A stretch of DNA of 64,000 bases from Boothiomyces macroporosus (taxonomy: Eukaryota; Chytridiomycota; Chytridiomycetes; Rhizophydiales; Terramycetaceae): the NCBI GenBank assembly GCA_027604185.1, contig JADGKB010000070.1, positions 1 through 64,000 of the forward strand. The letters are read 5' to 3'. The notes below the pieces were generated by a model that was given only the letters and a program-made list of their open reading frames with translations, had not been told where the DNA came from and made no database searches. The number at the start of each line of letters is the position of its first letter. Positions within the stretch are counted from its first letter, which is position 1. Shown piece after piece: positions 96-62,668 of this stretch. The translations under genes and the position numbers were made by a program.

Positions 96-574
96 AATCT
101 CTCTCAATGCTGAATTCAACAAGATGACAGCCTCGAATCTTGGTTTGGTATTTAATGCTGTTCTTTTCCACCACCAGCAAGATCTGTGTGAAAACAACTA
201 CCAATCACACCTGCAGCTAAAGAAAGACACGGTAATTTTTCTATTAATTTAGGTGGTTGAAGATATGATTGACTACTGTCATGAACTGTTTCCTCTAGGA
301 CAACAACTCGATTTGATTCACGATGATGGTGTCAAATATATCCATCCAAAAATGCTATTGAAGCAAGATACCGTAAGTTTTATTTAATTTAGGTTTCCGA
401 TGATATGACCGAATGCGGTTATGATTTGTCGCCATTTCCACAGGTAAGAATTGCTAACATTAGAGTTCAAAGATTATACTTCCATCAATCCCACAGATAT
501 TTGAGATATCATTCTTTGATGAGGTGGTAGCTGATTTGCCAGACTCCTCTGTTGCAATTTTTCAGCATCAATAA
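96..574 (+). CDS. RhoGAP-domain protein, C-terminal part (5' end missing)
   Basis: The first readable residues, NKMTASNLGLVF, match the end of the RhoGAP domain, where an NKM-T-x-x-N-L helix precedes the last strand; RhoGAPs speed GTP hydrolysis by Rho-type GTPases in actin and polarity control. Four exons join in one frame: from about 96 to 231, 253-372, 393-443 and 464-574 (TAA), separated by introns of 21, 20 and 20 nt. The tail after the domain has about 90 residues and no motif I know. The left boundary at 96 is a guess from a possible 3' splice site (TTGACCAAG); the catalytic arginine finger would lie before the window. Bases 1-95 are T-rich and I could not join them in frame. It could instead be a 5'-truncated gene starting at ATG 124. 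Confidence 0.6.
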
Positions 575-674
575 ATCATTTCCATTCATTTAAACTGTAG
601 TAACTAGATTAACAAACGATTTAAATCAGAGAAATAATCAAATAATTGTACAATTTAACTATAATTAATTACTA

Positions 675-3600
675 TTAAATTATTTTGTGTCCATATCGGT
701 CTTTAAACTTGGCCAACTCTTTCTTTACTTCATTCTTTTGTTCACGAGCAAACTTTTGAAACTCTTCTAGTAATTCAATCCTACAAGCAATGTCATTAGC
801 ATCAAATGGAGGCTGAATTTCTGTAATCAACTTACACACTCTAGTGACAAATTCAAGCAAGTCAATTTCCTTTTTCATTTTATAATTTTTCAAGCAAGAT
901 TGAAATCCCTTATATTTGGTTCTTCCTAACGTATTTTTCAACAAAGTAAGCTATAACATACCTTATCATTGAAATTTACAGCATAGTTCGTACTCTTTGA
1001 AGTATTGACTGTTGGTATATTCTTTCCAGGTTGGACATTTTCAGATTCTTCTTTTACGGAGGAGGTTTGTTCACAGGAAGATTCATTTAAATTGCTATTC
1101 AATGGTGATTCTTTCTTCTGGGATAAATAAGTTTTCGAAACTTCCAATGGATTGTTACTAGCAGTATATTCGATCGCCACATGTTTTCTAGTAGCAATAG
1201 AACTTTGTTTTATAGCTAATGGATCTTCAGGAAGTTTGAAGTTTAAAGGATTATCCGATATATTGTTGCTTTCATCCCAGGCTTTTATATTGATATGCAG
1301 TGGATCTCCACTTGCAGGAAAAGTTGACGTTACCTTCTTTGGCATTACACTTAATGCATCACTTGCATAAATTGATGCACTTTGGTTGTACTTTTTCGGT
1401 GACACATACATTGGATCTGTCTTGTCAATTTCAAAACGAGCATGATGGGTTGACTTTGCTGGTATTGACAGAGGATCGCTACTGTTATGTTGTTCATTCG
1501 ACTTCATAGCGGTATTTGTTAAACCCTTGTAACTGTCTTTTATAGATACGTATTTTCCATTCACTGCTATATCATTAAAGTTGACAGAAAGTGGGTCGTT
1601 TCGATCATAATAGCGCTCTAGATCATAATCCCTGACGAGACGGGTTCCAACATTCTCATTACTTTTCTTTTGATTGACTGCAAGATCTGATGAGTAATCG
1701 AGCCCTAATTGTCCAATATTTCTAAAAAACCTTTGCAAGTTGGTATTCAATTGACCATATTCCTTTACCACTTCAATATGATGTCTAATCCACACTGGCA
1801 AGTTCTTTTGAACGGTTGCGTTTGAAAATCGATCATCCAATAGTATTATTGCCCCATAATCTTTTCGGTGTCTTATTACTCGTCCAATTGCTTGATTAAC
1901 AGCGCGATAAGCTTGTTGGCTGTACCATTCATCACCTCCTTTCCTATTATTGATGGAGAGAATCTTCTTTTTAAGTTCTACTTTTGGGTCTTTGAGGGCT
2001 GGAAATGGGATACCACAAATCAATACTGCACGACAATGATCGTCACTGAAATCTATTCCTTCACTCGCTTTCCCTCTGCAAACAGCAAACAAAATCGCCC
2101 CGCTGTGTTTGACAGAATTATTGAACTTTTCAATCACTCTAACAAATTCCAACTTGGATTTGGGTTCAACATAAACTTTCTTGTGCTGCTCCATTAGTCC
2201 AATTATAGAGTTTCTTCCACTTTTCGTAATCTATATTAACAAAAAGTACTCGCTCCCAGGCATCAATTGTTTTCTTTAATAAAGCATAAGAAGTGAAAAA
2301 TACCAAGATTCCTTTGGGAGTGACTTTGGCAATATTTACAATAGAGAGTCCTAAATCGTGAATATACTCTCGCGAATCTCGTTTAGAAAATGAAGAATTT
2401 AGCTCAACACCTGATGGCCCCTTTTGCAACACATTTACCAAGATTTGAGTGTGCTTAATTACATGCGCGTTTTCTACTTTATATGGGAATAAGCTACATT
2501 AACTATCATTTACATTCCGGTTTCCTTTGGAATACTTTCCAGGGGACTCTATAATTAGGTTGACTTACCAAAGTTCCTGAAGCCAAAATAATCGTTCTTG
2601 TTCCTAAAGCTTGAAGCGATTTCATTGCAACTTGAGCACTAAAACACCAGAACGACAAGACTGTTTCCAACTTTTTCACTGGTGCAAATTGCTCTGCAAC
2701 AACCGTGTCTTTCCGTTCAATGTGAACTCTGTAAAACTCTATCACACTGGTATCTTTTTCCAACACTTTGTACAGTAATTTTAATGCATCATTGAACAAT
2801 GCAAGTCCATATCTAGCAATATTTTTTGACTTGTACCCTGTGCCAGATAAAACAGTTATGGCGCCATCCACCAAAAGCGAAAGGTTACTCGCGTTTGAAT
2901 AATCAATTTCAATGGATTGAAATAATTCATACATGTACTTTCCACTCTGCGTTTGTATCCCTGTAAAATTCGATAATTTGTTTTGTAGGAGCTCCAACTT
3001 TACTATTTTTAGAATTGTTTACATTTCAGGGCATTATATTCACCCAATCCAAACTCTGTTTCGTTTTCAGTCCGTAATTTAATCAAGCAATGCTCCATTT
3101 CAATAATCGCTTGTTTAATGTCCGATAGCGTCAATTCGAACGAATAGGACTCTTCACAAAAAGATTCCAGATTATGAGCTTCATCAAAGATCACGATTGA
3201 ATTGGTCAAATCAAGACTCTGTGCCTCCCTTGTTTGAGAGTCAATCAAGTAGTTGTAAGGTAGGAATACAATATCAGCAGATCCCTGATTTTCTCTTGAA
3301 GTGTAAAAAGGACAAGTTCTAGTATTAACAAAACAGACGTATTCTCTTTTCCATAATTGATTAGATCTTCAATATCCATGATTTCATCCTTTCCAGAATT
3401 TTTCGATACATTATTGTAATATTGGCATTTTCGATTCTTTGTTAACGATTTACACATTCCAGTTTTTGAAGCAGTAGCGGCATTTTGAACTGCTGGATTC
3501 ACACACATCTGCTCTCTACTTCCCAATACTACTGCTCTTGGCTTGTACTTTGTATTCTTGATCTGATTCACAACCTGCGATAACTGAGAATGAGTTCGCT

Positions 3601-3973
3601 GAATTAAGTAATAGTACAGATGCGTAGTATATCTTTGGTAATGGCACATCAGATTCTCGATCCTCCATGTATGGCAGAGACCCAAATACAGCCCGATGTA
3701 CTTTTTGTGAATCTGTAGTTTTCTTGTGAAACTTCCAGTCGGTGTAAGCTGCTTTCCAGGCTAATATTGCGCAGAGTAAACATAGTGTTTTTCCAGTTCC
3801 AGTTGGCGATTCGATAATTGCATTTTTACTCTTGAATTAAATAATATTACAGACTGTAAGCTCTGGATCAAGGTACTCATCAATAGATGCTGCTGTGGAT
3901 ATGGCTGAAAAGGGAACTCGATGTTGATATTTTCGAGATTCAGATTCATTTTTGGGATACTATTTCTGGACAT
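675..3973 (-). CDS. RTEL1: RTEL1-like iron-sulfur DNA helicase
   Basis: Superfamily 2 XPD-type 5'-3' DNA helicase that unwinds D-loops, telomeric loops and G-quadruplexes in the nucleus. Nine exons were joined: 3851-3973, 3618-3830, 3339-3598, 3023-3318, 2569-3002, 2514-2548, 2250-2493, 980-2230, 675-950, giving 1043 residues. Motifs in order: Walker A SPTGTGKT, four Fe-S cysteines ([23 protein letters not shown]), DEAH box [32 protein letters not shown], and motif [20 protein letters not shown], which fits RTEL1 better than FANCJ or CHL1. The last exon ([12 protein letters not shown]) resembles the harmonin-N-like domain of RTEL1. Seven introns are 19-20 nt. The last (951-979, 29 nt) is my weakest junction; an 11-nt intron there would also keep the frame. 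A second Met lies 8 residues in. Confidence 0.9.
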
Positions 3974-5443: not shown

Positions 5444-7327
5444 ATGTTGAACATATTAGTTTTCGAGATTGATATAGTTGCGTCGCACCTGGACTTTGAA
5501 AGCTACTTTGAACTTCGCTGTTCATACAAGAACTATTTCCCAACAACACCAACACTAAGGTCGTTCGGATACATTCAAAAAGTACAAGAAATACAACCTT
5601 ATGAATTGATATATAGTGAACAGTATATTGAATTTCCAGTGAAATTAAATCCAGAATCATATTCCTTCGGTACATTCAAATGCTCAATAGAAAGGGGGGA
5701 CTATGTACATTTCAAGAAAATGCTGCTAGATGACAGCGTTTCGAAAGATGAAATAAACGCGATAATTCAGTCATTCCTAGAGAAGGAAGTTAGGCAATGC
5801 AGAATGGGCTGGGATATGGTGCAGTACATGAATTCAGAGTATGGGGGAGGGTTCCAAGAAACCTATTACAGCTTGTTATATTTCCACGCCTCTCAAAATG
5901 GTCACTTGGATATCATTGAATTACTTGCTGAGAACCCACTGGCGCAATTGCTTTACACACACAACGATATCTTTATAGAAGCCTGTGTACATGGATACTA
6001 CGAAATAGTTAAATATTTAGTTGAACGCAGCTTGGTTAACGTAAATTATAGGGATGGGTCCATGTATTCGGGATTAGTCTATGCAGGTAATCGAGGCTCA
6101 GTTGAAATTGTCAAATTGTTACTGGATTTGCCACAAACTACGCTACTGATAGGCGACTTGTCTTACATTTTATCACATTTCACAAAGGACGAAAAGTATT
6201 CCCAAATCTTTGAATTGTTCCTACACGATCATAGATCAAGATGGAATGAATTCGACAATATCATTCTCATCAATCTTTGCCATTCAGGATATACGAAATT
6301 CGTAAAAGCGATTACAAGTCTTCCTGGGGTTGAAGTCAATGCTACTGCAATTAGGTACGCGGTGCTAAACAATTACTTTGCCATTCTAAAGCTATTGCTT
6401 GAAAAATGCACGTTCAATCCATTCCCAAAGGTATTGAAATATGCCTGCGAGACCTTCAATCCCACCACATTGGGCTTTCTATTGAAAGACCCAAGAGCAG
6501 TTTTGACTCTGGAGGTTATCAGCGATTGCTTGCAATTCAATTCAAAAAATGTATTGAAATACTTTGCAAAGCACAACCTGGTTGACTTTTCGGATAAAGA
6601 TATCCGGAACCTTTTTATCTGCTATGCAGTAAAATGCAACAATCTAAAATTGTTGGAAAGGCTTTTGAATATTGGAGCACCAGAATATAGCAACAAGATC
6701 CAAAGAGAAATTACATCAGGAGCGTATAATGTTAATGTAAATGCTATAAAGTTACTGCTAAAAGAAGAGTCATTGTGGGGAAAGCGTTTATGGGAGAGGG
6801 CATCTCTTAACGCAGTCCAAGTAAACCGTTGGGACCTGATATTTATGTATCTGTCATATTCAAATTTTAACCCTTCATTTAACAGTAATAAGCTTCTCTA
6901 TTTTGCTGTTCAAAGTTCAAAAACCAGCACAATCAAAAAGATTGTTACCCATCCCCAGTTCAAATACAATAATGAAATCGCACCATTCAATGCAGCAATG
7001 CGCAATAGTGACATCAAGGCTACCCAGTATTTGATGAAGCATTTGGATTTTGATCCAGGACAATATTACAACTCTCTCTTTAGAAATGCCTGTAAATACG
7101 CGGACAAAAAGTACATTGAATACCTACTCACTTTGGACAAGGTAGACCCGACAGTTCTTGATTATGAAGCAGCGGTCGAGCTTGTTAAAAGGAAGGATGA
7201 GGATATTTTGCCCTTGCTTGACCACCATAAATTTGGAATTGACCCGGCGACCATGCAGAGTATTTATCAGCTGGCTTTATTAGATTCGGATGATTGTATA
7301 GGTATACCGGATTGGACATTCAATTAA
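5444..7327 (+). CDS. F-box-like/ankyrin-type repeat protein, array member 1
   Basis: About 627 residues, no intron. The N-terminus MLNILVFEIDIVASHLDFESYFELR is the shared head of the array and looks like a degenerate F-box helix pair. The rest is a solenoid of degenerate ankyrin units (for example GHLDIIELLAENP, GYYEIVKYLVERSLVNVNYRDG, GSVEIVKLLLDLP), with family signatures NVNYRD, CTFNPFPKVL, NFNPSFNSNKLL and FRNACKYADKKYIEYLLTLDKVDP near the C-terminus. I prefer ATG 5444 to the in-frame ATG 5423 because it aligns with the starts of the paralogs. F-box/ankyrin proteins often act as substrate adaptors of SCF ubiquitin ligases; that role is inference here. It is the most diverged of the five tandem copies. 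Confidence 0.88.
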   Translation: MLNILVFEIDIVASHLDFESYFELRCSYKNYFPTTPTLRSFGYIQKVQEIQPYELIYSEQYIEFPVKLNPESYSFGTFKCSIERGDYVHFKKMLLDDSVSKDEINAIIQSFLEKEVRQCRMGWDMVQYMNSEYGGGFQETYYSLLYFHASQNGHLDIIELLAENPLAQLLYTHNDIFIEACVHGYYEIVKYLVERSLVNVNYRDGSMYSGLVYAGNRGSVEIVKLLLDLPQTTLLIGDLSYILSHFTKDEKYSQIFELFLHDHRSRWNEFDNIILINLCHSGYTKFVKAITSLPGVEVNATAIRYAVLNNYFAILKLLLEKCTFNPFPKVLKYACETFNPTTLGFLLKDPRAVLTLEVISDCLQFNSKNVLKYFAKHNLVDFSDKDIRNLFICYAVKCNNLKLLERLLNIGAPEYSNKIQREITSGAYNVNVNAIKLLLKEESLWGKRLWERASLNAVQVNRWDLIFMYLSYSNFNPSFNSNKLLYFAVQSSKTSTIKKIVTHPQFKYNNEIAPFNAAMRNSDIKATQYLMKHLDFDPGQYYNSLFRNACKYADKKYIEYLLTLDKVDPTVLDYEAAVELVKRKDEDILPLLDHHKFGIDPATMQSIYQLALLDSDDCIGIPDWTFN

Positions 7328-7432
7328 ATAAATTGTTGATATTAATTATTTACAATCAATAAATGATTTCTTGCATTTTGGTGGTTCAAATAATGCATTT
7401 TTGGTGGCGCAATCCTTGGCAATATTCTTTTC

Positions 7433-9271
7433 ATGTTGGAAAAAATTGGAGTAGAACTGGAGATTGTAGGTCGGCATTTAGCGATTCAAGATTATCTGGA
7501 ATTACTATATGCGCTCAACTATAGACTCCCACTCATTCCGCACTTATCATACCCAGCCTATCGGCTATCATTTCCAAATATCAAATCGTCTGAATACAAA
7601 TGTAGTTGCAAATATGGAGCAAAGTTACATAGTGACTATTACAGCGATGAATCATTTAAATTTGTTTTTCAAGTATCCGATTTAGAAACAATAAGATCGA
7701 TGCTACTCTCACACTCGGTTTCCATAGAAACTCTATTGGTGGCCATTGGCGAAATAATCCAGGAAGAGATTGTAATACCCCAAATTGGATGGGAAATCTC
7801 TAAATATCTATTGGATTTTCATCAGATACCAATAGATCCGCATTATACCTCTATTATGTACTTTCAAGCGGCTGGATTAGGGATGTTGGAGTTGGTTTCG
7901 TTACTAATCCTCGATCTCAATGCACAGTCATTCTATTCACACAATGAGGTTTTTGTTGAAGCATGCAGAGCAGGTAACCCAGATATGGTGGAATTTTTGA
8001 TGGGTCAGCAATTTATAGATATCAATTACAGGGAGGGACCAAATGGATGTTCAGGATTTTCTATTGCTGCAGCAATAGGTAATTTCAAAGTATTCAAGTT
8101 ACTCTTGGCTGAGCCTACAATGGTAATCGAGGAGGGTGGCTTGACTTACCTGCTATCATGTTGGAGAAACGAACCCAAATACATGGAAATGTTTGAAATA
8201 TTGATGGAGGACGAAAGAGCAGTTTGGAATGAATTAGACAACATGCCGCTGTCTTCCTTGTGTATAACTGGACTAGTTGGAGCTGTCGAAAAGTTGTTAC
8301 AACGGGATGATGTTGATCCTGCAGCTGACTCATGTAGAGCAGTAGAATATGCTGTCATAAATGACAATTTGGACATACTAAACCTCCTATTGCAGATACC
8401 AAGTGTAAACCCATTTCCGGGCATATTTACATTTCCATGCCAAAGTCAGAATTTTGGTATTCTAAACAGATTGCTTCAAGATCCACGAGGAATAGTTACA
8501 ATTAACCCCTTGAACGCAGCGATCAGTTCAAAATCTGAATTAGTAATAGATTTTATAGTGGAAAACAACCATCTAGATCTTTGTGATAATCAAATTCGCA
8601 GTGCTCTTGCATCTTTTGCTGTGCTTTTTCAAAAAGAGGAAATTTTGAAAAAATTGTTAAAGATTAAAGAAATATCAATTGATGCAAGACTGGAAGCTGC
8701 TATTTTTGATGCATTAAGTCTTGGAAACACGAAAGCCATTAATTTTTTGATTAGTGATGACACTATTGAAGATGGATTGTTGTGGCAACGATTGGCATTG
8801 AAATCAGCAAACCAAAATCGGTGGGAATTGATTTATCTACTGTTAAATTCACCAAAGTTTAGCCCGTCCTTCAAGAAAAACGAGTTGCTCACATTGTCAT
8901 GCGAACATTCTGTCTCGATAATAACTGAAAAAATAGTAGAGCATCCAAACTTTACATATCAACATGAAGATGGGATGTTCATGGCACTAATGCGAAATAG
9001 TAACATCCAGGATACCAGGTATTTATTGGAAAACTTGCCGTTTGATCCCTCCCAGAAAAGAAATTTGCTATTCCGCAGTGCTTGCAAGTATTCTACCAAA
9101 GAGTACATTGAGTACTTATTGACTTTGGACAAAGTTGATCCAACTGAATTAAATTACCAAGCATTAAAGAGCATTTTGGCAAGAAAAGACGACAGTCTGG
9201 TGGATCTGGTTAACACTGGAAAATTTGGAATTGACATCAACGTGTTTAATCTGTACCTACGAATGGAATAA
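7433..9271 (+). CDS. F-box-like/ankyrin-type repeat protein, array member 2
   Basis: Intronless, 612 residues. The head MLEKIGVELEIVGRHLAIQDYLELL is followed by degenerate ankyrin units. Strong family blocks are FVEACRAGNPDMVEFLM, DINYREG, VNPFPGIF, FSPSFKKNELLTLSCE, DPSQKRNLLFRSACKYSTK and YIEYLLTLDKVDPTELNYQA. The last 150 residues are closer to member 4 than the middle is, so the C-terminal part is under more constraint or has been homogenised. It starts 105 nt after member 1 ends; that gap holds no TGACTCA, unlike the promoters of members 1, 3 and 4. Ligand or target is unknown. Confidence 0.9.
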   Translation: MLEKIGVELEIVGRHLAIQDYLELLYALNYRLPLIPHLSYPAYRLSFPNIKSSEYKCSCKYGAKLHSDYYSDESFKFVFQVSDLETIRSMLLSHSVSIETLLVAIGEIIQEEIVIPQIGWEISKYLLDFHQIPIDPHYTSIMYFQAAGLGMLELVSLLILDLNAQSFYSHNEVFVEACRAGNPDMVEFLMGQQFIDINYREGPNGCSGFSIAAAIGNFKVFKLLLAEPTMVIEEGGLTYLLSCWRNEPKYMEMFEILMEDERAVWNELDNMPLSSLCITGLVGAVEKLLQRDDVDPAADSCRAVEYAVINDNLDILNLLLQIPSVNPFPGIFTFPCQSQNFGILNRLLQDPRGIVTINPLNAAISSKSELVIDFIVENNHLDLCDNQIRSALASFAVLFQKEEILKKLLKIKEISIDARLEAAIFDALSLGNTKAINFLISDDTIEDGLLWQRLALKSANQNRWELIYLLLNSPKFSPSFKKNELLTLSCEHSVSIITEKIVEHPNFTYQHEDGMFMALMRNSNIQDTRYLLENLPFDPSQKRNLLFRSACKYSTKEYIEYLLTLDKVDPTELNYQALKSILARKDDSLVDLVNTGKFGIDINVFNLYLRME

Positions 9272-9383
9272 AGTTTGTAGTTTTGAACCCAAAAGTTTCG
9301 AATCAACAGATCTCTTATCGATCCTCGAGACAGTACGAGTGACTCCACTAATTGCCTTGATGAATATGTGGCATACTTTTTGA

Positions 9384-9390
9384 TGACTCA
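9384..9390 (+). promoter_or_regulatory. TGACTCA motif upstream of ankyrin gene 3
   Basis: Perfect TGACTCA 48 nt before ATG 9432, in the context TGATGACTCACG. The word ATGTGGCAT lies just upstream at 9366-9374 and is shared with the promoter of member 1. Confidence 0.4.
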
Positions 9391-9431
9391 CGAAACACTC
9401 TTTGCAAAATGACTGAAAATTTTTAAAGACT

Positions 9432-11147
9432 ATGCTCGAAAAACTTCAAGCAGAATTGGACATCATTGCTAGCCATTTACACTATGTAGACTATCAGCAA
9501 ATGCGGTTTGCAATTCAGAGTGATTTGAATGAAATTCCAAAAAGCACTTTGACAGCTTACAAACTTTCAACTAGCAGCTATGATCGTAAATCAACGTCTC
9601 AAATCTACCCTGTACAACTTTTGAAGGACTGCTATGGTGAAGAAGCGTTTGAATATGCACTAGCGATCGTTGATATGAAAACCTTTGTTGATGTTTTGTA
9701 CAGTAACACCATCGAAATCTCAGTAATCCAAAATACTATACAAAACATAATGAACGAGAATATCAGCGAACCAAAACTTGCATGGCAGCTGTTAAAATAC
9801 TGCGAATTGAATAGGATTGAAATCGAAAATGACTTTTTTGTCAGCTTATTGTACTCTAGGGCAGCAGAAACAGGATGTGTAGATATTATCAAGTCCCTCA
9901 TGCACAATCAGAAAGCTGAAATTGCAAAGTCACACAATGAGGTTTTCATTGTAGCAGCACAAAATGGCCAAACAGAAGTAGTTCAAGCAATGATGTACCA
10001 GCCATTTATTAATATCAATTACAGAGATGAACATTTTGATGGAACTGCGTTTGTAAATGCAGCAGCTGAAGAATTCGCCGAAACTGCCAGAGTTTTGTTT
10101 AGTCATCCAGACCTGATTTTGGCAAACGGTGATATAACTGACATTTTCAATGGTTGCACTTATACTCCTGAAAGTATGAAGATTTTCCACATGCTATATG
10201 AAGATTCAAGAGCGGTTTGGAATGAAAATAATAATGGTCCTATTGTGGCTCTATCTTCATCTGGTTTAACCGAAGCAGTAGATATATTGTTGGACAGGGA
10301 TGATATAGACCCAACTGTGCGATCTAACAGGGCTGCCATGATGGCTGCATGGAATAGCAAAAAAGAAGTCTTGAAATTACTTCTTTATAAAGCTAAAGTG
10401 AATCCATATCCGAAAATATTTATCTATCCTTGTAGATGTGACGATTTGGCAGTTCTGGAAATCTTGATGGATGATCCTAGATCTTTTATCGATGTTCAAA
10501 GTATCGGCAAAGCTGTAACAGAGAATGCTTGTCCTGTAATTAACCGAATACTTGAAAAAAACTTTGCTGACTTGAGTGATATACATATCCGCTCAGTCTT
10601 GGCTGTATATTGTATACACAACGAAAACATAGACTTGATGAACAAACTACTGAGAATTGGCAGCGTAAATCCAACCTCCAGAATAATGGAGGCGATCATT
10701 CAAATAGCTAAAGATGGTAAATTCAAAGCAGCTGAAATTCTATTTGAAGAGAAGAATTTCAGAAAGGTTCAATTTTGGGAAAAATGCAGTATCAAACTTG
10801 CAACGAACAATCTTTGGAAACTAACTGATATGCTATTGGCTCATGGTTCATTTAATCCTTCCTTCAAGAAAAATGCGCTGCTAACACTCGCCTGCGAACG
10901 AGAGCGGTTTAGCATAATTCGTAAAATTACAGATCATCCTGCTTTTAGATACAGGAATGAATTTGCGCCGTTTCACGCCTTGATCCTGGTTAATAATATA
11001 GGGGTTACTGGGTACTTGCTGGGAAAGTTGAATTTCGATCCAACGCAAAAAGATAACTTGCTATATCGAACGGCGTGCAAATATGCTTCCAAATACTATA
11101 TTGATTTTATCTCATCTCTAGAGAATGAGGGGCTTAATTTAACTTAA
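9432..11147 (+). CDS. F-box-like/ankyrin-type repeat protein, array member 3 (short C-terminus)
   Basis: Intronless, 571 residues. The head is MLEKLQAELDIIASHLHYVDYQQMR. Ankyrin-type units include NGQTEVVQAMMYQPFININYRDE, and the family blocks VNPYPKIFIYPC, FNPSFKKNALLTLACE and DPTQKDNLLYRTACKYASK are all present. It ends in YYIDFISSLENEGLNLT where members 1, 2 and 4 continue for about 40 residues with YLLT-DK-DPT-LN. The last unit has therefore been lost or replaced, probably by a small indel or an early stop. I did not find the missing unit in frame in the 190 nt downstream. Confidence 0.88.
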   Translation: MLEKLQAELDIIASHLHYVDYQQMRFAIQSDLNEIPKSTLTAYKLSTSSYDRKSTSQIYPVQLLKDCYGEEAFEYALAIVDMKTFVDVLYSNTIEISVIQNTIQNIMNENISEPKLAWQLLKYCELNRIEIENDFFVSLLYSRAAETGCVDIIKSLMHNQKAEIAKSHNEVFIVAAQNGQTEVVQAMMYQPFININYRDEHFDGTAFVNAAAEEFAETARVLFSHPDLILANGDITDIFNGCTYTPESMKIFHMLYEDSRAVWNENNNGPIVALSSSGLTEAVDILLDRDDIDPTVRSNRAAMMAAWNSKKEVLKLLLYKAKVNPYPKIFIYPCRCDDLAVLEILMDDPRSFIDVQSIGKAVTENACPVINRILEKNFADLSDIHIRSVLAVYCIHNENIDLMNKLLRIGSVNPTSRIMEAIIQIAKDGKFKAAEILFEEKNFRKVQFWEKCSIKLATNNLWKLTDMLLAHGSFNPSFKKNALLTLACERERFSIIRKITDHPAFRYRNEFAPFHALILVNNIGVTGYLLGKLNFDPTQKDNLLYRTACKYASKYYIDFISSLENEGLNLT

Positions 11148-11283
11148 TATACTACACTCTCGTATAATTACATACTTGGAAACTTTATCCTGCAGGAAAT
11201 TAATTGAGCAAAACTACTGAGCCAATTACAAAGGTATGAGTAAAATGACAGCTCTCTTTGATGGAGCGCTATGGTGACGTGTG

Positions 11284-11290
11284 TGACTCA
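11284..11290 (+). promoter_or_regulatory. TGACTCA motif upstream of ankyrin gene 4
   Basis: Perfect TGACTCA 54 nt before ATG 11338. The flank GTGTGACTCA and, slightly downstream, TGCACACAA resemble the region before member 1 (TGACTCACAC followed by TGCACACAA), suggesting a common ancestral promoter. Confidence 0.4.
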
Positions 11291-11337
11291 ACCCAAAATG
11301 CACACAAATAAAACCTTGGAAAGTTACAGTAAAACTA

Positions 11338-13191: not shown

Positions 13192-13221
13192 TATGTATAT
13201 CGTGTTCAACTTTTTTTCAAA

Positions 13222-18785: not shown

Positions 18786-18914
18786 ATTAATCCAGGCGGC
18801 ATTAAAGTATTTCAAACAGTAGGATCCATCACTGTAATATGATTCAATTCCATTTCCGCTTTCACTATCCATAGCGACCTTTCTACTTTTTGAATTCGTT
18901 TTTTCAACGCGTCA

Positions 18915-25556: not shown

Positions 25557-25597
25557 ACCAAGGTGAAAGCGAACGTAAAGATGAAAGTAGCCTAGAG

Positions 25598-45386: not shown

Positions 45387-45891
45387 ATAAAAATCGTAAT
45401 TGGAAAAATTCTATTCAGTATTTAACCTCTGTGCTGGCGATTATTAGTATGTGTACAACCTGATTCCTCTGAACGATAATTAACCCGAGAAGTAACATGG
45501 TAGCCCTACTCAAGATGCCGTAAATATGCGATTATCATTCTGAATCATTCATTAAACTGTAATTCAAGGAGCAGCGTCAGTGAACTTGTTATTGGGTGCA
45601 GTCCCTTTTTGGCACAATGAAAAGAAATTTGCTGCTTGGCAGCCAACATTCACCAAGCGAATTGGAAAATATTTATCGTTCTCTGCTTCACTACTCCACA
45701 CTACCAATCGATGCCGGACACTTCTCTTCCTTCAAGAGGCCCTAATAGTTTTTCCCTTGTGTTATCGAAAATAATCGCTTCACTTTTTGAGCATAGGTCA
45801 CATGCTAATGCGGTCCTGTGACACCTTCTATCTTGGACAGTAATTAAATTCTCATTGTTTGTAAAAATTCATTTTCTAAACAACTTGCAGC
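45387..45891. other. Intergenic, possible relic coding on the minus strand
   Basis: 505 nt between eIF4A and the RAD5-like gene. On the minus strand around 45690-45840 a frame reads RRCHRTALACDLCSKSEAII, vaguely like the start of a fungal Zn2Cys6 finger, but it is closed by stops on both sides and I could not splice it. I list it as background with a possible relic. Just before ATG 45892, GTAAAAATTC to TTGCAG could be a 5' UTR intron of 30 nt. Confidence 0.25.
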
Positions 45892-48800: not shown

Positions 48801-48925
48801 TTAGTGAAGAAGACAAAGATACCAGCAGCAGCGACGGTAAAAGGAAAAGAAAAAGAATCGACCCACTTGTTAAAGAAAACAAAAAGATTGAACAGATGGA
48901 GTCTTTATCAATTCTATTCCGCTAA
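45892..48925 (+). CDS. RAD5: RAD5/HLTF-like SNF2 ATPase with RING finger
   Basis: 943 residues from eleven exons; introns at 46241-46260, 46293-46312, 46403-46421, 46525-46543, 47280-47299, 47435-47455, 47607-47629, 47922-47941, 48093-48113 and 48439-48457 (19-23 nt). A disordered N-terminus and a divergent HIRAN-like part lead to the SNF2 ATPase: FKYQRQALHWM, GGILADDMGLGKT, LIICPLSTIHNW, VLDEAHIIK, LTGTPVQN, then a C3HC4-type RING inserted between the lobes (CIFC, PCRHLICNNC, CPTC), and the helicase C-lobe (IFSQFT, RLDGAMNRTQR, SIKAGGVGLNLVAA, DRVHRLGQTKPV). RAD5/HLTF promotes error-free bypass of DNA damage through PCNA polyubiquitination and fork reversal. Two introns fall within or beside the RING. 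Confidence 0.9.
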
Positions 48926-50943: not shown

Positions 50944-51864
50944 ATGAAACCCAAGCAAAATATCTTTCTGGTGATAGTTGCATTTCTGATATTCGTTATA
51001 TTTATTCAACAGAACAATCCATTAGTAGAAACAGCGATTGCTAAAGTCGAATCCAAGAACAGAGCTGAAAAGCGAGCTTATCTCTTTTACGCTACTTCAA
51101 AACCTTATGCCTGCAGCGTAATGGTATTTGCTGAGCGATTCAAACTGTTTAAAAAGGATCCTTCAATTGATATTTTGGCGCTTGTTTCTGGGCTGGACGA
51201 ATCAACTTTAAACAAGATGAATAGCCTCGGGATAAAAACTAGTCACGTTGATATACACTCAGCAACCGGCGATAAGAACTCAGAAAATAGAGAGCGTTAC
51301 AAAGAATCAAATACGAAACTGCATATATTCAAGGATTGGGGATACGACAAGTTTGTTTATTTGGATGCAGATAGTTTACTAATGACAAATATCGATGATT
51401 TATTTGATTTACCTGAAACGAAACTATTCTGGGCTCCTAGAGCGTTTTGGCTTTCAGAAAAGTACCAGCCAGCGTTCACTACTGTCCTCATTGTTGGAAA
51501 ACCATCAAAGAAAATTTACGAGGATTCCATACAACTTTCCAAGAAAGAGAACAGTATGTATGACATGGACATTCTAAATAAGCTATACCGCCATCAAGTT
51601 GGATTGCTCCCAAGCATTTATGGTTTACTAAACAGGAATATATTATACCAGTCAGAATTACCCGCGGAATATTGTGGGGATTTGACGCAAGTAAAGAAGG
51701 ATTTAAAGCTGGTTCACTTTACTTCGGCAATTAGCGCAACAGGGATATATGGAAAGCCTTGGTCTCAACCTCGGAAAAAGCCCGAGAATATTCAACCTGA
51801 TACCGAATTGTATTTTGAATTGTTTGAAGCTTTTTTTTCTCTTTACGATCGAGTCTGTCCCTAG
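50944..51864 (+). CDS. GT8-type glycosyltransferase, type II membrane protein (copy A)
   Basis: 306 residues from ATG 50944, no intron. A short cytoplasmic start (MKPKQN) and one signal anchor (IFLVIVAFLIFVIFIQ) are followed by a GT-A fold domain of the glycogenin/galactinol-synthase group: RAYLFYATSKPYACSVMVFAER, DWGYDKFVYLDADSLLMTNID (DxD metal site), and the FDLPETKLFWAPRAFW, MYDMDILNKLY and HFTSAISATGIYGKPW blocks. It should act in the Golgi lumen on glycans. ATG 50944 is preferred since the frame upstream of it has no good start and lies before the anchor. A tandem paralog follows 185 nt downstream. Confidence 0.88.
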   Translation: MKPKQNIFLVIVAFLIFVIFIQQNNPLVETAIAKVESKNRAEKRAYLFYATSKPYACSVMVFAERFKLFKKDPSIDILALVSGLDESTLNKMNSLGIKTSHVDIHSATGDKNSENRERYKESNTKLHIFKDWGYDKFVYLDADSLLMTNIDDLFDLPETKLFWAPRAFWLSEKYQPAFTTVLIVGKPSKKIYEDSIQLSKKENSMYDMDILNKLYRHQVGLLPSIYGLLNRNILYQSELPAEYCGDLTQVKKDLKLVHFTSAISATGIYGKPWSQPRKKPENIQPDTELYFELFEAFFSLYDRVCP

Positions 51865-52049: not shown

Positions 52050-52973
52050 ATGGCTCTAATGTCAAATCGCTACGTTCGCATTATTGTTTTGTTTCTCTTA
52101 GTAGCAACTCTCTTTTCCCTCACGCTATCAAAGTTCAAGTCCAGTTATCCAATTATTCATACAGCAAAACAGAATTCTCCAACTGCAAAGAGTATAAAGA
52201 GAGCTTACATGTTCTATGTGACCTCCAAGCCGTATGCGTGCAGTGTAATGGTGATGGCGGAGCGTTTGGAAATGTTTAAAAAGGATCCTGCAATTGATAT
52301 TGTCGCATTGGTGAACGGGATAGACAACAGCCAGCTATCAAAGATGCACAAGATGGGAATCAAAACAAAGCCGGTAAATAAATTACAAGCGCTTGGGAGC
52401 AGTAATGAAGCCGAAAAAGAGGTCTGGAAAAACTCGAATACCAAATTTCAAATCTTTAAAGATTGGGGATACGATAAATTCGTTTACTTGGATGCAGACA
52501 CACTGTTAATGGACAATATTGATCATTTATTTGATTTACCTGACGTTCCTACCTTTTGGGTTCCAAGAGCGTATTGGTTACCAGAAGTTTACCAACCAGT
52601 ATTCTCCACACTACTGATAGTTGGCAAACCATCGCAAAAGATTTATGATGCTGCTGTCAGCTATTCAAAGGTAGATAATGGAATCTACGATATGGACGTA
52701 CTAAACAAGCTGTACAAACATAAAGTAGGAGTTCTGCCAAATATATATGGATTGATCAACCGAAGTTTTTACCAAGGCTTTCCTGAAGAGTATATGCTGG
52801 ACGGAGCAGTATTTGAGGAGGATTTCAAGCTAATTCACATAACAGACTATGCTACTCACCAGTATGGTAAGCCATGGGATTATCCTCAAAACAAGCCAGA
52901 GGATAAGACAGCCTATCCGTACTTTTACCAGACACTAGAAACATTCAACAAGCACTATGACAAGTACTGTTAA
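52050..52973 (+). CDS. GT8-type glycosyltransferase, type II membrane protein (copy B)
   Basis: 307 residues, tandem paralog of copy A with the same order of motifs: anchor IIVLFLLVATLFSLTL, RAYMFYVTSKPYACSVMVMAER, DWGYDKFVYLDADTLLMDNID, FDLPDVPTFWVPRAYWLP, YDMDVLNKLYKHKVG and HITDYATHQYGKPWDYP. ATG 52050 places the anchor at residues 10-26; a second Met three residues later is equally possible. No intron. It ends 6 nt before the stop of the convergent sensor-domain gene. Donor and acceptor sugars cannot be told from the sequence. Confidence 0.88.
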   Translation: MALMSNRYVRIIVLFLLVATLFSLTLSKFKSSYPIIHTAKQNSPTAKSIKRAYMFYVTSKPYACSVMVMAERLEMFKKDPAIDIVALVNGIDNSQLSKMHKMGIKTKPVNKLQALGSSNEAEKEVWKNSNTKFQIFKDWGYDKFVYLDADTLLMDNIDHLFDLPDVPTFWVPRAYWLPEVYQPVFSTLLIVGKPSQKIYDAAVSYSKVDNGIYDMDVLNKLYKHKVGVLPNIYGLINRSFYQGFPEEYMLDGAVFEEDFKLIHITDYATHQYGKPWDYPQNKPEDKTAYPYFYQTLETFNKHYDKYC

Positions 52974-52979
52974 TATACT

Positions 52980-55309: not shown

Positions 55310-55535
55310 GCGTGTATATTCAAATATCTGGTGAAGGTATTACACATTGGATTCCAGACCAAATATAAGATTTCGCTGCTGTCAATCATTCTCTATACAA
55401 AGCAAAGTTACCATGCAACAGATTTTACTTTGGTGATAATACGGCCGCAAATTTCATAGAGTTAGTCGTTTTATGACTGTAATTTCGTCAGGCGGAACTG
55501 AAAAGTTTCATAGCAAGTTTTTTTCCTGTTCAACA

Positions 55536-56936
55536 ATGCACACACTTCCAGTTGAACTTTTACAATTGATAACTCGCTTCATTGACCATGACGACTATTA
55601 CAACCTCTACTTTTCATACCAAAGCAATATTCCTCTACCTCCTGTTCTCTCACTAACAGCGTTCAATAACTTCATCAAAACCAAGAGGTACTACAGGATT
55701 AGAATTGGGAAACTAAAGCATATTGGTCTACCAGTACTAGACAAGGAATATTATTGCCCAGAAATATTCAGCTATTTACTTGGCTTGAATTGTCTGGAAG
55801 CTGCAAAGATGTTTCATTTGATTAGTAATTCAGAACTGCTAGAACTCCTAAGCAGGTATTTCTTTTATGAAAGATCGATTCTTGCTTGGCCATTGTACAA
55901 ATACCTAAATCAGCAGAATATCGCTATTCCTGGAAACATACTGGGAAACATATACCGGAACGCTGCGAATAATAATTGCACCGAGATATTAATGGAAATG
56001 GTGGATTTGGTGAGTATATGGGAGAAGAGGACTGTGTTCCATTCAGTTTGTTACAGCTCAGCTTTCGAAGTGTTTGAATATCTGTTGCAACATCTGGAAA
56101 TAACTCGTGGACGATTCTCAGATATACTCCGATGTGCACTAAATAGGGATATGAGATTCATCAAGAAATTTTTGGAAACTTGTCAAGGAAATGTAGATAG
56201 TGGTACATTGAGATATACAATCCAGCACGTTGATAAAAGTTGCGCAAAATTACTGTTCAGTTATCCAAATACTAGAAAGACTCTACTTGATTGCGATAAT
56301 AATCACTTATTGACAGGTAGTGGAAAAATTCAATATGTATTCATTTGGGATTATTTGTTGGAGAACCTTGGCGACCCTGCAAGTAGTCAAAATGAAGCAA
56401 TATTTGTCGCTTGTAAGGAAAACGCTTGGTATTTGGTGAGCAAGCTACTTGAGGATCCTCGAGTTAATCCATATGACCGAAACTGCTCGATATTCACTAA
56501 TCTTTGCGGTCGAAAGCAATTTCGTATATTCAAGATGCTCTACAAGCCAAATCTCACTTTTGATTTCAAGTCCATTCTGCTGGAATTGATAACCAGGAAC
56601 AGCCAGAACACGATAAAGTTTCTCTTGGACAACAATGAAATCAAACTTGCAGACTTTGAACCGGTTCACATCAAAGCCCTGCTAAAGAGCGGAAACGGTA
56701 CATTAAAGGAACAGCTTTTGAATATCCCTCAGCTGCTTCCATTGTTCGAACAGCAGATATTGGAACCCTACCAGATTGGAAAGGCTCAGAATTGGCATAC
56801 GATAAAATTGAGTCAGCGACACTTTTGGGTCCTCGTTCCATTGCTTGATCAAAGGTTCAATGAATTCTTTGATTGGGCAATCTCAGAGGAAATTGTAACA
56901 GATAAAAAGTTGATTTCAATTATTATAATAAAGTAA
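55536..56936 (+). CDS. F-box plus ankyrin-type protein, short diverged member
   Basis: 466 residues from ATG 55536, no intron; an in-frame ATG at 55473 would add 21. The N-terminus HTLPVELLQLITRFIDHDDYYNLYFS is a clear F-box start (LP-x-E-L-L), and the continuation D-x-Y-x-L-Y-F matches the heads of the tandem array (DYFKLYFALHS), so the array heads are probably worn F-boxes. Further shared blocks are LDKEYYCPEIF and EDPRVNPYDRNCSIFTN. It ends about 130 residues short of the family, before the FNPSFKKN and FDPSQKRN blocks. It may be a truncated gene or a functional short form; the reading frame itself is intact. Confidence 0.8.
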   Translation: MHTLPVELLQLITRFIDHDDYYNLYFSYQSNIPLPPVLSLTAFNNFIKTKRYYRIRIGKLKHIGLPVLDKEYYCPEIFSYLLGLNCLEAAKMFHLISNSELLELLSRYFFYERSILAWPLYKYLNQQNIAIPGNILGNIYRNAANNNCTEILMEMVDLVSIWEKRTVFHSVCYSSAFEVFEYLLQHLEITRGRFSDILRCALNRDMRFIKKFLETCQGNVDSGTLRYTIQHVDKSCAKLLFSYPNTRKTLLDCDNNHLLTGSGKIQYVFIWDYLLENLGDPASSQNEAIFVACKENAWYLVSKLLEDPRVNPYDRNCSIFTNLCGRKQFRIFKMLYKPNLTFDFKSILLELITRNSQNTIKFLLDNNEIKLADFEPVHIKALLKSGNGTLKEQLLNIPQLLPLFEQQILEPYQIGKAQNWHTIKLSQRHFWVLVPLLDQRFNEFFDWAISEEIVTDKKLISIIIIK

Positions 56937-58547: not shown

Positions 58548-59709
58548 ATGTCGACGATATTGGAGAAAATCAAGGATATTGAAAATGAAATGGCAAAGAC
58601 CCAGAAAAACAAAGCGACTTCGTATCACTTGGGCACATTGAAAGCAAAATTAGCCAAACTTCGAAGAGAGTTATTGATGCCATCCAGTGGAGGTGGTGGT
58701 CCTGGTGTTGGATTTGATGTTGCAAAAACAGGTGTAGCTAGAGTTGGGTTTGTCGGGTTCCCTTCTGTCGGAAAGTCTACCTTAATGTCAAAATTAACAG
58801 GAACCCATTCTGAAGTTGGTGCGTACGAGTTCACCACGCTCACAACTGTTCCTGGTGTTATCCAATACAAGGGTGCAAAAATTCAAATGCTTGATTTACC
58901 GGGTATCATTGAAGGTAATGGTATTTAATATAGGTGCCAAGGACGGTAAAGGTAGAGGTAGACAGGTCATTGCCGTAGCCAGAACATGCTCATTGATTTT
59001 CATTGTCTTGGATGTACTTAAGCCATTGGGAGATAAAAAGATCATTGAAAGAGAATTGGAAGGTTTTGGAATTCGTCTCAACAAAAAGCCACCAGCAATC
59101 ACTGTTCGAAAAAAGGAAAAGGGAGGGATTAACATCACTGCTACCGACAAATTAACCAATATTTCAAAGGATGTCATTAAAGCCATCTGCTCGGAATATA
59201 AAATTCACAATGCGGATATCTCAATTAGATGCGATCCAACTGAAGATGAGTTTATTGATGTTTTGGAAGGAAATCGTATCTATATCCCTTGTTTGTATGT
59301 CTTGAACAAGATTGATCAAGTAACTTGAAGTTGACATAGATCTCTATCCAAGAATTAGATATTATTTACAAGATCCCTCACTCTGTCCCAATCTCCTCTC
59401 ACCATGAATGGAACTTTGATGATTTGCTAGAAATGGTAAGTGTCGCTAATGTAGATGTGGCAATACTTGGATCTCTGTCGTATCTACACAAAGCCAAAAG
59501 GTAGACTTCCCGATTATGAACAGCCGGTGGTTCTAACAAAAGACAAGAACACTGTGGAAGACTTTTGTAATGCTATCCATAGAGGAATTCTCAGGGACTT
59601 TAAGAACGCTATCGTTTGGGGCTCAAGTGTTAAGCATCCTGGCCAAAAGGTCGGAAAGGAGCATGTACTCAACGATGAAGATGTAGTTCAGATTGTCAAG
59701 AAAATTTAA
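58548..59709 (+). CDS. DRG1: DRG1/RBG1 developmentally regulated GTPase
   Basis: 367 residues, the family length, from exons 58548-58914, 58934-59319, 59340-59435 and 59455-59709; introns of 19, 20 and 19 nt. N-terminal helix-turn-helix [20 protein letters not shown] and [17 protein letters not shown]1 GFPSVGKST; switch region [12 protein letters not shown]3 [20 protein letters not shown]; the inserted S5D2L-type segment ([15 protein letters not shown]); G4 NKID; and a C-terminal TGS domain ([19 protein letters not shown] to [15 protein letters not shown]). With its Dfrp partner it binds translating ribosomes and relieves stalling. The first intron interrupts the Gly following DLPGIIEG, part of the active site. 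Poly-A leader. Confidence 0.96.
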
Positions 59710-59791: not shown

Positions 59792-61702
59792 ATGAAGAAT
59801 CAGAGGACCCATCGCTCCGTAATGGAAGCTACTGCAGCGCATGACGCTTTTCTAGCCAAAGTATCTATTCGCTAATTACAGATTGGTTCCAAGATCGGAG
59901 TGGTTGCAAAAGATGGAACTTTATCCAGACAGAACATTACTCCAATGTCAGACTCTACACCGTTTTTAAAACCATTCAGACAGCGAAGCTTACCATTAGT
60001 TGCAAGGAGATTCCTACCAAGACCTACAGACAAGAAAAAGAAGGCGGCACGTCAACCATACGAGAAATATTCATCTGCCGTGGATTTAAACAAGGAAGTG
60101 CCAGCAACTTCATCGGATACTGTAGTTGTTCAATCAGTTTCGCCTGGGAAACTGTCTGTATCATTATTACAGGAACCGGAAATTGATATTTGCTCGATTG
60201 CTGGATATGAAAAAAGTCATATCGATGAAGTCGAGAATATACCCAAGGAAATATCAATGCCAGAGAAGCAATACCGCAGATATAAATCAATCCAAATTGC
60301 AGCACCCAAGGAAAAGTCTTTAATCGAGAGCGCAGTCTTGCAAAAAATCTCTGAATGGAGTGTATTTGATGTACAGCTATTACGTGATATTACTCGTATA
60401 ATTGAGCCGATAGTTGCAGCAGATATCCTATATGACTACCTCAATGATATGTCTGCTGGGATAGCCAAAGAGAGGGATTATACGGAAGAAAAACCTATAG
60501 CTCCGTCCAGTAAAATCATGGGAAATATAGCAGAATCCAACTACGATATATCTTCGACATTGGTATCTGCAGGGTTTCTTTTCATGTCTCATGAAGTTAG
60601 AGAATCGCTTGAATCGAAATATTACGAAAACAAAGGGGAGGATAAGGGCAGGTTTGTCTCTCGTAGCAAATTGTTTGAAAGCCAAAAAACAACAGCCGAT
60701 ACTCAGCAACACTATCCGTACATGAGAAACTTACCTCCTTCTATTCCGGCCGATCCTTACAATGCAAGCTACTCTAAAACAAAGAAATTCACAAATACCA
60801 CAGTATCAGCGCCATTGTTAAGCAGAGAGTCTACGCCTAAACCAAAAGTATACAATAAGGATAGAAATGAATCACCAACTTGTATTGTTCGACTAGATAA
60901 TAGCCTACTGGATAGCAAGTTTGGTGATACAGAGCATTCTTATGATATAAATGATGGATTTGATAGTGAATTCATGTGGGGTAGGGATCCTCCCGGTGAA
61001 AATGAAGGACAATACGTTGAAACTATGGAGGATTACCATCAAGAAGATGATTCAAGCAAATCCGCCAATCTTGAAGATGAAGAGCAGTCAAATGTGATCG
61101 ATAACGAAAGTGATGCCCCAAGGACCTCTTCCTGCTCTTCAAGGAGAAGAGAAAGATTTAAACCAAACTTTTTTCCTAAAGAAGTGAGTTTGGGGAGTCT
61201 TGGGCCAGACAAGGAAAACGAAGAATATATATCAAAGGTAAATCTTTCTAATATAGTTGGGAAAGGTAGCCAAACAAAAAGAATATAGTGATAAAATAAG
61301 AAAAATGGTCTTGGCAAAATGCAAACCCACAGCCAACTCTCCAAAAGGAAGAGAAACCAAGAAAGCTCCAGATGAAAAAGCAACGAAACTGCCAACGCTG
61401 ATTACCAAACCAACTGATGGTAACGGAAAATTTCCAACTAGTCTTACAAAGGCTCAAAAGGTACCTATTTCCAACAGTAGATGAAGTTTTACGCTTCTAA
61501 TATTAAGAAACCAGACCTAGTTCTAAAGAAATCAGCAAAATCATTGACCGATGTACAATTTGGAACTAAACTGCCTCCTATATCTAAAAGGAGGTGTAGC
61601 TCTGTGCCTTCATACTCACCAGACTTGGTTTGGCTGGAGACTAAACATAATTCAGACGTGACAACTGCTGAAAACATTCGGAAATCATTCAAAAATATGT
61701 AG
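59792..61702 (+). CDS. Disordered protein, possibly flagellar
   Basis: 616 residues from exons 59792-59860, 59882-61237, 61257-61460 and 61481-61702; introns of 21, 19 and 20 nt. It begins MKNQRTHRSVMEATAAHDAF, is mostly polar and disordered with an acidic middle (DDSSKSANLEDEEQ) and has one helical part (SAVLQKISEWSVFDVQLLRD). A basic motif, KQKEYSDKIRKMVLAKCKP, resembles short E-Y-x-K-x-(I/V)-R stretches seen in ciliary proteins such as JHY; this is weak. It sits directly upstream of and in the same direction as DNALI1 (86 nt), an axonemal gene. Otherwise uncharacterised. Confidence 0.6.
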
Positions 61703-61788
61703 ATACCACTTGTATACTATAAATAAAAATAGTAATCTGAAGCGTTCTTTTTTCGATCGCGTCACTCTTCTTTTCACAGATAATTAAG

Positions 61789-62668
61789 ATGGCACCAGGA
61801 TATTCACTAGTTAGATACGATAATCCCGTTTTGGTTTCCCGTAGTGATGTCGTTGCTTCAGCAAAAGCTGCAGGAGCTAAAGCAGTGGGAGGGGCGGAAC
61901 AGAAAAAGGGATTACCAAGTGGTTCGAAAAAGTTGCCGCCTGTTGAAGATAAAGGAAGGGCAAAAACGCCAAGCCAAACTGAAGATATTTTGAATTCAAT
62001 TCTTCCACCAAGGTTTGAGCAAGGTTAATTTCAGAGAATGGGACGAATCAGGACAGTTATGGATTCAAAAAGTATCAAGTACCCCAGCAACCAGACTGGA
62101 TGTGATTAATTTACAAGTAGGTTTCCATTAAACTAGGAACAATTGGACCACATCTTGCAAAAACGTCAAGCTCGTGAAACTGGGATTTGCCCAGTTAGAA
62201 GAGAACTATATAGTCAATGCTTTGGTTATTCATGATTAATATCAGATGAATTGATTAGACAGGTAACCATCAGTTGTCAAGAGCGTGGTTTACTGCTTTT
62301 AAGGGTTCGTGATGAAATCAGAATGTCAATTGCGGCTTATCAAACCCTTTACGAAAGCAGTGTTGCTTTTGGTATGCGAAAAGCGCTCCAAGCTGAGCAA
62401 GGGAAATCAGACATGGAAACCAAAGTATCACTCGCTAATATAGATTAAAGAATTGGAAGATGAAAAGCGACAACTGGAACAAAGTGTACTAGAATTAAAA
62501 GCCAAATGCGAGGCGATTGAAAAAAGAGAGGGTGAGAGAAGAGCAATGGAAGAACGTAAACACGCGGAAGAAATTGCGTTTCTCAAGAAAACTAATGTCC
62601 AGCTCAAGGTAATTTACGGCTGATATCAGACTCAATTGGAAGGTATTCTTAGTCCACAAAAAAAGTAG
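61789..62668 (+). CDS. DNALI1: Axonemal inner-arm dynein light chain p28 (DNALI1)
   Basis: 258 residues, as in the family, from exons 61789-62012, 62035-62116, 62137-62224, 62246-62424, 62444-62608 and 62630-62668; introns of 22, 20, 21, 19 and 21 nt. Signatures: SLVRYDNPVLVSR near the start, EDILNSILPPREW, LWIQKVSSTPATRLDV, RQARETGICPVRRELYSQCF, ERGLLLLRVRDEIRMSIAAY, LYESSVAFGMRKALQAEQG and a coiled-coil C-terminus. p28 is a subunit of single-headed inner-arm dyneins in the motile flagellum. Its presence shows the organism has or recently had swimming zoospores. The first intron starts GTTTGA and the third GTTATT, weak donors. Confidence 0.96.

Follow-up and report, generated by a model that had tools for sequence, protein, structure and literature searches.

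Introns of 19–23 nt as the apparent norm in genes of the chytrid fungus Boothiomyces macroporosus

Tiny introns are known from the nuclear genomes of the ciliates Paramecium and Nyctotherus (roughly 20–30 nucleotides (nt), a broader range than the one reported here), and some introns of the Microsporidia, which are fungal relatives, are ~23 nt long. Shorter ones have been described as well. Specifically, PMC10245619 gives intron lengths of 15–16 nt for heterotrich ciliates, 16–17 nt for the mikrocytids (Mikrocytos mackini and P. canceri) and 18–21 nt for the intron-rich chlorarachniophyte (Bigelowiella) nucleomorph. It also counts 224 predicted introns in M. mackini and 17–19 identified spliceosomal proteins in mikrocytids, and describes Microsporidia as having few introns and a reduced spliceosome (PMC10245619). 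In the heterotrich Stentor coeruleus, the GU-AG introns are 15–16 nt long, the branch A is the 10th nucleotide of the 15-nt introns and is followed by a 5-nt tail, the most abundant intron starts with GUAAUU and the U1, U2 and U6 motifs are canonical; Slu7 and Prp18 were not found in this species, the Gly-rich plug of Cwc25 was missing and the N terminus of Isy1 was not conserved (PMC9505925). Here we report on bases 1–64000 of contig 70 (the window) in the 15.2-Mb, 216-contig genome of Boothiomyces macroporosus (Terramycetaceae, Rhizophydiales, Chytridiomycota), together with a 264-kb sample of that genome, in which spliceosomal introns of 19–23 nt appear to be the norm.

Such introns would rank with the shortest on record. 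This range nearly equals that of the Bigelowiella nucleomorph, but the latter is a relict endosymbiont nucleus and ours is the main nucleus of a fungus. Paramecium and Nyctotherus likewise carry tiny introns in nuclear genomes, but they are ciliates. Introns are very short and uniform in mikrocytids too; these, however, are parasites with 224 predicted introns (M. mackini) and 17–19 identified spliceosomal proteins, whereas in the presumably free-living B. macroporosus we called 352 introns in 264 kb and found all seven of the splicing-related protein families searched for. Compared with the intron-poor Microsporidia, our sample carried introns in 96 of 143 genes, at 1.88 per kb of coding sequence, and the median exon in spliced genes was 208.5 nt. 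Genomes with ultrashort introns are an established kind, to which B. macroporosus would add a fungus that keeps Slu7, Prp18 and the Cwc25 plug. Among the papers listed by searches of the open PMC library, none reported ultrashort introns in chytrids in its title or at the start of its abstract, subscription papers and genome-portal statistics being outside the scope of that search. An initial annotation of the window had named Stentor and the Bigelowiella nucleomorph as precedents; both are known short-intron cases, but the list was incomplete, as it left out the mikrocytids with their 16–17 nt introns (PMC10245619).

Gene models for the window were rebuilt independently of the earlier intron list, using a Viterbi gene-finder and a coding model trained on long open reading frames (ORFs) from the window and from 20 sampled 10-kb stretches on 20 contigs. 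These stretches lay at fixed positions picked blind to content and were not a random draw. The gene-finder accepts GT-AG introns only, learned its intron signals from its own flat-prior output and, in its final version, applies a length prior that favours 17–24 nt; models scoring at least 10 were counted in the window, and models scoring at least 20 across the sample. It placed 57 introns in 18 genes of the window, all of them 19–23 nt long, the first at 232–252 and the last at 62609–62629. The observation of 19–23 nt introns in the window genes is thereby confirmed: the initial annotation had reconstructed 59 introns of the same lengths in 19 genes, and two that it gave as examples were recovered to the nucleotide (44244–44262, GTAATCATTCCTAATACAG; 62425–62443, GTATCACTCGCTAATATAG). 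That the coding sequence of every model is divisible by three is no separate evidence, since this is built into the gene-finder's working.

Removal of these introns restores conserved proteins, as had also been claimed, and homologous matches span all 24 of the joints checked in six genes (24 of the 57 window joints; 17 of the other 33, in the RAD5 and RTEL1 genes, were compared with relatives). In five of the six, 19 of 19 joints were ungapped in the printed alignments. The spliced eIF4A-III (44123–45386, + strand; introns 44244–44262, 44521–44539, 45096–45114 and 45351–45369, each 19 nt) aligns over residues 5–395 to eIF4A-III/DDX48 (2j0q), and the DRG1/RBG1 GTPase (58548–59709, +; 58915–58933 (19 nt), 59320–59339 (20) and 59436–59454 (19)) aligns over its full length to Ribosome-interacting GTPase 1 (4a9a). 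All seven joints of the CDK9-like kinase (40340–41610, +; 40579–40599 (21), 40642–40661 (20), 40793–40812 (20), 41002–41021 (20), 41108–41126 (19), 41225–41244 (20) and 41452–41471 (20)) lie within its alignment to CDK9 (6z45), and SEC22 (24354–25059, −; 24861–24880 (20), 24681–24699 (19) and 24515–24533 (19)) aligns to SEC22b (8hr0_C). One S28 peptidase (31290–32984, −; 32445–32467 (23) and 31733–31754 (22)) aligns to the Aspergillus niger prolyl endoprotease; its first joint restores GGSYAG, and the second sits in a weak segment (E-value 0.00092). The five joints of the sixth gene, which encodes the axonemal dynein light chain p28/DNALI1 (61789–62668, +; 62013–62034 (22), 62117–62136 (20), 62225–62245 (21), 62425–62443 (19) and 62609–62629 (21)), were judged by match end-points alone, with residues 65–250 of the spliced protein falling on positions 1–186 of the 187 in PF10211 (E-value 1.2e-91).

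Two further genes were compared with public protein models, namely an RTEL1-like helicase (938–3973, −) with seven introns (3831–3850 (20), 3599–3617 (19), 3319–3338 (20), 3003–3022 (20), 2549–2568 (20), 2494–2513 (20) and 2231–2249 (19)) and a RAD5-like SNF2 helicase (45892–48925, +) with ten (46241–46260 (20), 46293–46312 (20), 46403–46421 (19), 46525–46543 (19), 47280–47299 (20), 47435–47455 (21), 47607–47629 (23), 47922–47941 (20), 48093–48113 (21) and 48439–48457 (19)). By peptide match, the public B. macroporosus models carry nine of 21 joints exactly (3/4 in eIF4A-III and 2/10 in RAD5, both in P0028; 4/7 in RTEL1, P0148), and the shared joints fall at introns of 19–21 nt. A pipeline independent of ours thus spliced part of these introns, whereas at other sites coding sequence was lost from its models. 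P0028 merges eIF4A-III with the adjoining RAD5-like gene (44123–48925, +) into one protein of 1138 amino acids. Over correctly joined exons, neither P0028 nor P0148 showed a substitution against the window when compared by eye, residues at misjoined edges aside; the listed identities are only 88% over 78% and 98% over 79%, respectively, because of the misjoins. The match of the shared exons assigns the window to B. macroporosus. One intronless protein shares 93% identity with a protein of Boothiomyces sp. JEL0866 and 84% with one of Terramyces JEL0728. Inspected by eye, the JEL0866 model of RTEL1 joins without a gap at six of the seven window sites and begins after the seventh. The Terramyces model of RAD5, likewise by eye, is without the segments that closely match window exons 3 and 6; in RTEL1, the model of this organism skips from the donor of window intron 5 to the acceptor of intron 7. 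As these losses are bounded by window intron sites, they suggest that Terramyces has introns at the same places in both genes.

The preference for these lengths was also seen in tests that make different demands on the gene models. In an ORF-joining scan with GT and AG as the sole motif, the GT-AG share of joins was 1.1, 1.6, 1.7 and 0.8% at 19, 20, 21 and 22 nt and at most 0.7% at all other lengths from 10 to 150 nt; at 23 nt it was 0.4%, which is not above background. When the scan was extended to all 256 dinucleotide pairs, GT-AG ranked first (259 observed vs. 102 expected), with GG-TA as the runner-up (150 vs. 92.6). When the length prior was flat and the branch model left out, the gene-finder called 116 introns, of which 49 measured 19–23 nt (43 of them beginning with GTA) and the remaining 67 (24 with GTA) were scattered over 10–274 nt; in the window alone, nine of 19 calls had the short lengths. 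Learned signals under a flat prior placed 146 of 196 calls at 19–23 nt (23 of 33 in the window), and with the length prior applied to the 264-kb sample the figure was 344 of 352. In both of these runs most introns were no longer than ~25 nt and fell in a narrow range; no other peak appeared in the ORF-joining scan or in the motif-spacing test described below. A length-shift control returned 15–24 calls in nine shifts, compared with 345 unshifted; the +5 shift, which covers 22–29 nt and still overlaps at 22–23 nt, returned 42.

Spacing of the motifs was evaluated with no gene models at all, by searching for a donor hexamer, a branch motif and an acceptor with a 5–6 nt tail. This gave 73 matches at 19–22 nt, compared with two in reversed sequence, and 13 at 19–21 nt in the window alone; since the motifs were derived from the same sample, it is their spacing, and not the motifs, that counts as evidence. 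A pattern search of all contigs yielded 23 matches, 15 of which were 21–24 nt long where 17–47 nt was possible (two of these 15 are one duplicated place). The total did not exceed the control (25 in the backwards sequence, compared by total alone), and the pattern was poorly chosen, since it demanded a tail of 7 nt past the branch A instead of the usual 5–6, so that only the length clustering is informative. If retained, 69 of 78 introns of 21 nt would bring in an in-frame stop according to an analysis of nonsense-mediated decay, a count that is uninformative because the gene-finder is unlikely to call a 21-nt intron that stays open. The initial annotation's reading of ultrashort spliceosomal introns as the norm is supported, mainly through the 344 of 352 calls and more weakly through the clustering across all contigs. 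Its word "uniformly" was slightly too strong, because seven of the 352 calls are 54–259 nt long, although these are candidates only.

The 344 introns of 19–23 nt share a compact anatomy. The donor begins with GTA in 313 of them, followed by A at +4 (59%), T (46%) or G (19%) at +5 and T at +6 (56%), and the commonest donor hexamer is GTAATT (56/344). The acceptor is TAG or CAG in ~89%, and the AT content is 71%. A YTRAY branch motif occurs in 253 of the 344, compared with an average of 58 in shuffled interiors. Its branch A lies at position 14 (n = 110), 15 (100), 16 (28) or 17 (7) in 245 of the 253 and is 5 nt (n = 112) or 6 nt (108) from the intron end in 220 of them; the introns vary in length because the donor-to-branch and branch-to-acceptor gaps each vary by a few nt. 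Since the final caller scored donor and branch motifs, fairer figures come from the introns called before any branch model (YTRAY in 29 of 43, with 5–6 nt tails in 25 of the 29) and from ORF-joining candidates obtained without a donor model, among which GTAATT occurred 27 times and GTAAGT six times (n = 307, chance candidates included).

Genes for U1, U6 and, in two copies, U2 are present in the genome, and their recognition sequences are canonical (U1 5′ end, ACUUACCU; U2 branch-site region, GUGUAGUAUC; U6 ACAGAGA box). The two U2 copies (stretches L029 and L030, on C80 and C178) have a common branch-recognition region and differ mainly in their 3′ half. The seven splicing-related protein families recovered are Slu7, Prp18, U2AF65, SF1, Cwc25, Isy1 and a METTL16-type methyltransferase (a match to PF05971, which occurs in bacteria as well). 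In the gene models, all seven genes themselves bear tiny introns of 19–24 nt, and Isy1 has one call of 46 nt in addition. Intron removal merged the two partial Slu7 matches (154.6 and 94.7 bits) into a single domain of 294 bits (1–253 of 253) and raised U2AF65, previously in fragments scoring 230.7 and 31.1 bits, to 342.7 bits, above the family cut-off of 310.3. Cwc25 reads MGGGDLNLKKSW, with a GGG N-terminus, at its likeliest start, while the first residue of the model lies upstream of this point. The initial annotation had proposed looking for changes in U2, SF1, U2AF and Prp8; none was seen in the first three (the U2 region is canonical, and U2AF65 and SF1 genes are present), Prp8 not having been searched for. 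A compensatory change in the small nuclear RNAs was thus set aside with U1, U2 and U6 canonical, and so was a loss of second-step factors with Slu7 and Prp18 found. The 5′ end of the Isy1 model is uncertain, and its first 31–36 residues are unaligned to the solved Isy1 chains shown. This end (stretch L046, ~1434–1560) can be brought in frame via two introns of 17–20 nt on either side of a 1- or 4-nt exon; the alternative is an undetected first exon.

Very probably, the 19–23 nt introns belong to the U2 spliceosomal type and have, in this Terramycetaceae chytrid, generally shrunk almost to the minimum length that the spliceosome can handle. They have GT-AG ends on the coding strand, a branch motif complementary to U2, a donor that matches U1 and conserved protein restored on their removal; the donor pairing with U1 is partial, because G stands at +5 in only 19% although GTA opens 313 of the 344. 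Several points weigh against this reading. Excision is a prediction from the DNA sequence, and the U1 match falls just short of the Rfam gathering cut-off (68.8 vs. 69.5 bits). Of the 21 joints compared, 12 are not shared by the public models, in which exons are skipped there, starts come late or adjacent genes are merged; we read this as annotation error. To judge from the missing joints in these three genes, the protein sets available for this group may not be reliable. The figure of 344/352 overstates the uniformity, because the prior of the final gene-finder favours 17–24 nt, and a flat prior lowers the share to 146/196 with learned signals and to 49/116 with none, the rest being scattered. 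Finally, U2AF65, Slu7 and Prp18 are kept despite the little room for a polypyrimidine tract past the branch point, and in yeast short branch-to-acceptor distances do not need Slu7 or Prp18, so that some longer introns may exist.

The retention of these three proteins would also suit a mixed genome, in which tiny introns stand beside a substantial ordinary class missed by coding-based methods (e.g., in the 5′ untranslated region or between weakly coding exons), and so would the seven of 352 calls at 54–259 nt, the 47 of 196 calls above 23 nt under the flat prior and the 46-nt call in Isy1. Such a class is nonetheless unlikely, given that the ORF-joining scan had no second GT-AG rise up to 150 nt, that the long flat-prior calls are scattered and that, past 22 nt, motif spacing was only slightly above that of reversed sequence (42 vs. 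27 matches at 23–60 nt). Removal by a non-spliceosomal route, either DNA-level excision (cf. the internal eliminated sequences of ciliates) or translational bypassing, would fit gaps that are short, AT-rich (71%), within genes and of a size resembling such elements; it is made very improbable by the strand-specific GT...YTRAY...AG arrangement and by canonical U1, U2 and U6 alongside a well-populated set of splicing factors, and neither process is known from fungi. That sequencing or assembly mistakes, or gene decay, gave rise to the gaps and chance to their GT...AG look, as might be thought from the many gaps that, like indels, are not multiples of three and from the joints missing in public models, can practically be dismissed, with GT-AG first among 256 pairs (259 vs. 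102 expected), a narrow branch-site spacing that already contradicts chance, the same pattern on further contigs of the genome and conserved proteins carrying on across both flanks.

The likeness to Stentor extends to GU-AG ends, narrow lengths, a near-fixed branch A, a short tail and canonical U1, U2 and U6. In addition, the GUAAUU of its top intron is the commonest donor hexamer here (56/344), which is possibly a case of convergence. Stentor belongs to another kingdom, however, and its introns are shorter and its branch consensus is not strong (PMC9505925). Slu7 and Prp18, undetected there, are present in B. macroporosus, and where the Cwc25 plug was missing in Stentor, the protein here reads MGGGDLNLKKSW.

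On the U2-type reading, each intron consists of three elements: the donor GUA(A), the branch site YTRAY and a YAG acceptor that ends 5–6 nt past the branch A, with the latter mostly at intron position 14–15 and in some at 16–17. The major spliceosome would remove them by its ordinary two-step chemistry, leaving a lariat loop of ~14–16 nt and a tail of 5–6 nt. A polypyrimidine tract would have no place between the branch A and the AG, because the gap is only 3–4 nt. With normal pairing, the U2 helix would extend from about position 9, and U1 and U6 would pair with positions 1–6, so that U1 and U2 with their full footprints would hardly find room on the same intron; recognition is therefore probably cross-exon, or U1 leaves before U2 binds stably. 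Pairing at the donor appears to be relaxed through loss of the +5 G, which may reflect relaxed pairing with U1 and U6.

On these data, uniformly ultrashort introns would extend to an intron-rich fungus, in which the demands that minimal introns place on the spliceosome could be tested independently, along with the lower size limit at which an intron is still spliced out. We tentatively propose, at somewhat less than even odds, that an essentially complete and unremodelled fungal spliceosome splices introns of 19–23 nt as the norm, that recognition runs across exons and not by joint binding of U1 and U2 to the intron, and that the weakening of +5 G is convergent between a ciliate and a fungus. 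If this is true, a standard spliceosome would need a donor-to-branch distance of only ~14 nt and a branch-to-acceptor distance of 5 nt, and minimal introns would not require the loss of Slu7, Prp18 and the Cwc25 plug that has been reported in Stentor. The weakened +5 G (GUAAUU) would then have arisen separately in both lineages as a signature of minimal introns.

The remaining ten spliced genes of the window were placed by the gene-finder. Three introns each were called in a model at 124–574 (+; 232–252 (21), 373–392 (20) and 444–463 (20)) and in one at 59822–61702 (+; 59861–59881 (21), 61238–61256 (19) and 61461–61480 (20)). Two introns each were called in a gene at 16976–18300 (+; 17874–17894 (21) and 18003–18022 (20)), which from its motifs we take to be metallocarboxypeptidase-like, and in a second peptidase judged S28-like by eye (35289–37189, +; 36507–36527 (21) and 36602–36621 (20)). 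Single introns were called in a small gene at 18378–18822 (+; 18777–18795 (19); model score 18), in a gene at 21745–22282 with a presumably WW-like N terminus (+; 22050–22068 (19)), in a model at 25095–25897 (+; 25543–25562 (20)), in a presumed phosducin-like gene at 30571–31253 (−; 30919–30938 (20)) and in models at 38447–39078 (−; 38973–38992 (20); score 19) and 39691–40278 (+; 39783–39803 (21); score 16).

A scan of the window for tRNA genes under bacterial settings found none, and a DNA search of it against plasmids gave no match. Elsewhere in the genome, three pairs of places had identical scores (C2:277278/319874, C20:74242/119309 and C49:3194/C100:4789), which suggests recent segmental duplication or haplotypes retained in the assembly. 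Five intronless genes of ~570–630 amino acids each stand in tandem at 5444–15072 (+), with related-looking copies at 48935–50746 (−) and 55473–56936 (+); ankyrin repeats were confirmed in both array members tested, while the match of the gene at 55473–56936 stayed below the Pfam cut-off. Two very similar intronless genes of the metallo-beta-lactamase fold (glyoxalase/ETHE1-like by eye) also lie in tandem, at 22517–23215 and 23416–24132 (−). A tandem pair of intronless genes that resemble each other was seen at 50944–51864 and 52050–52973 (+), the first of which matches glycosyltransferase family 8.

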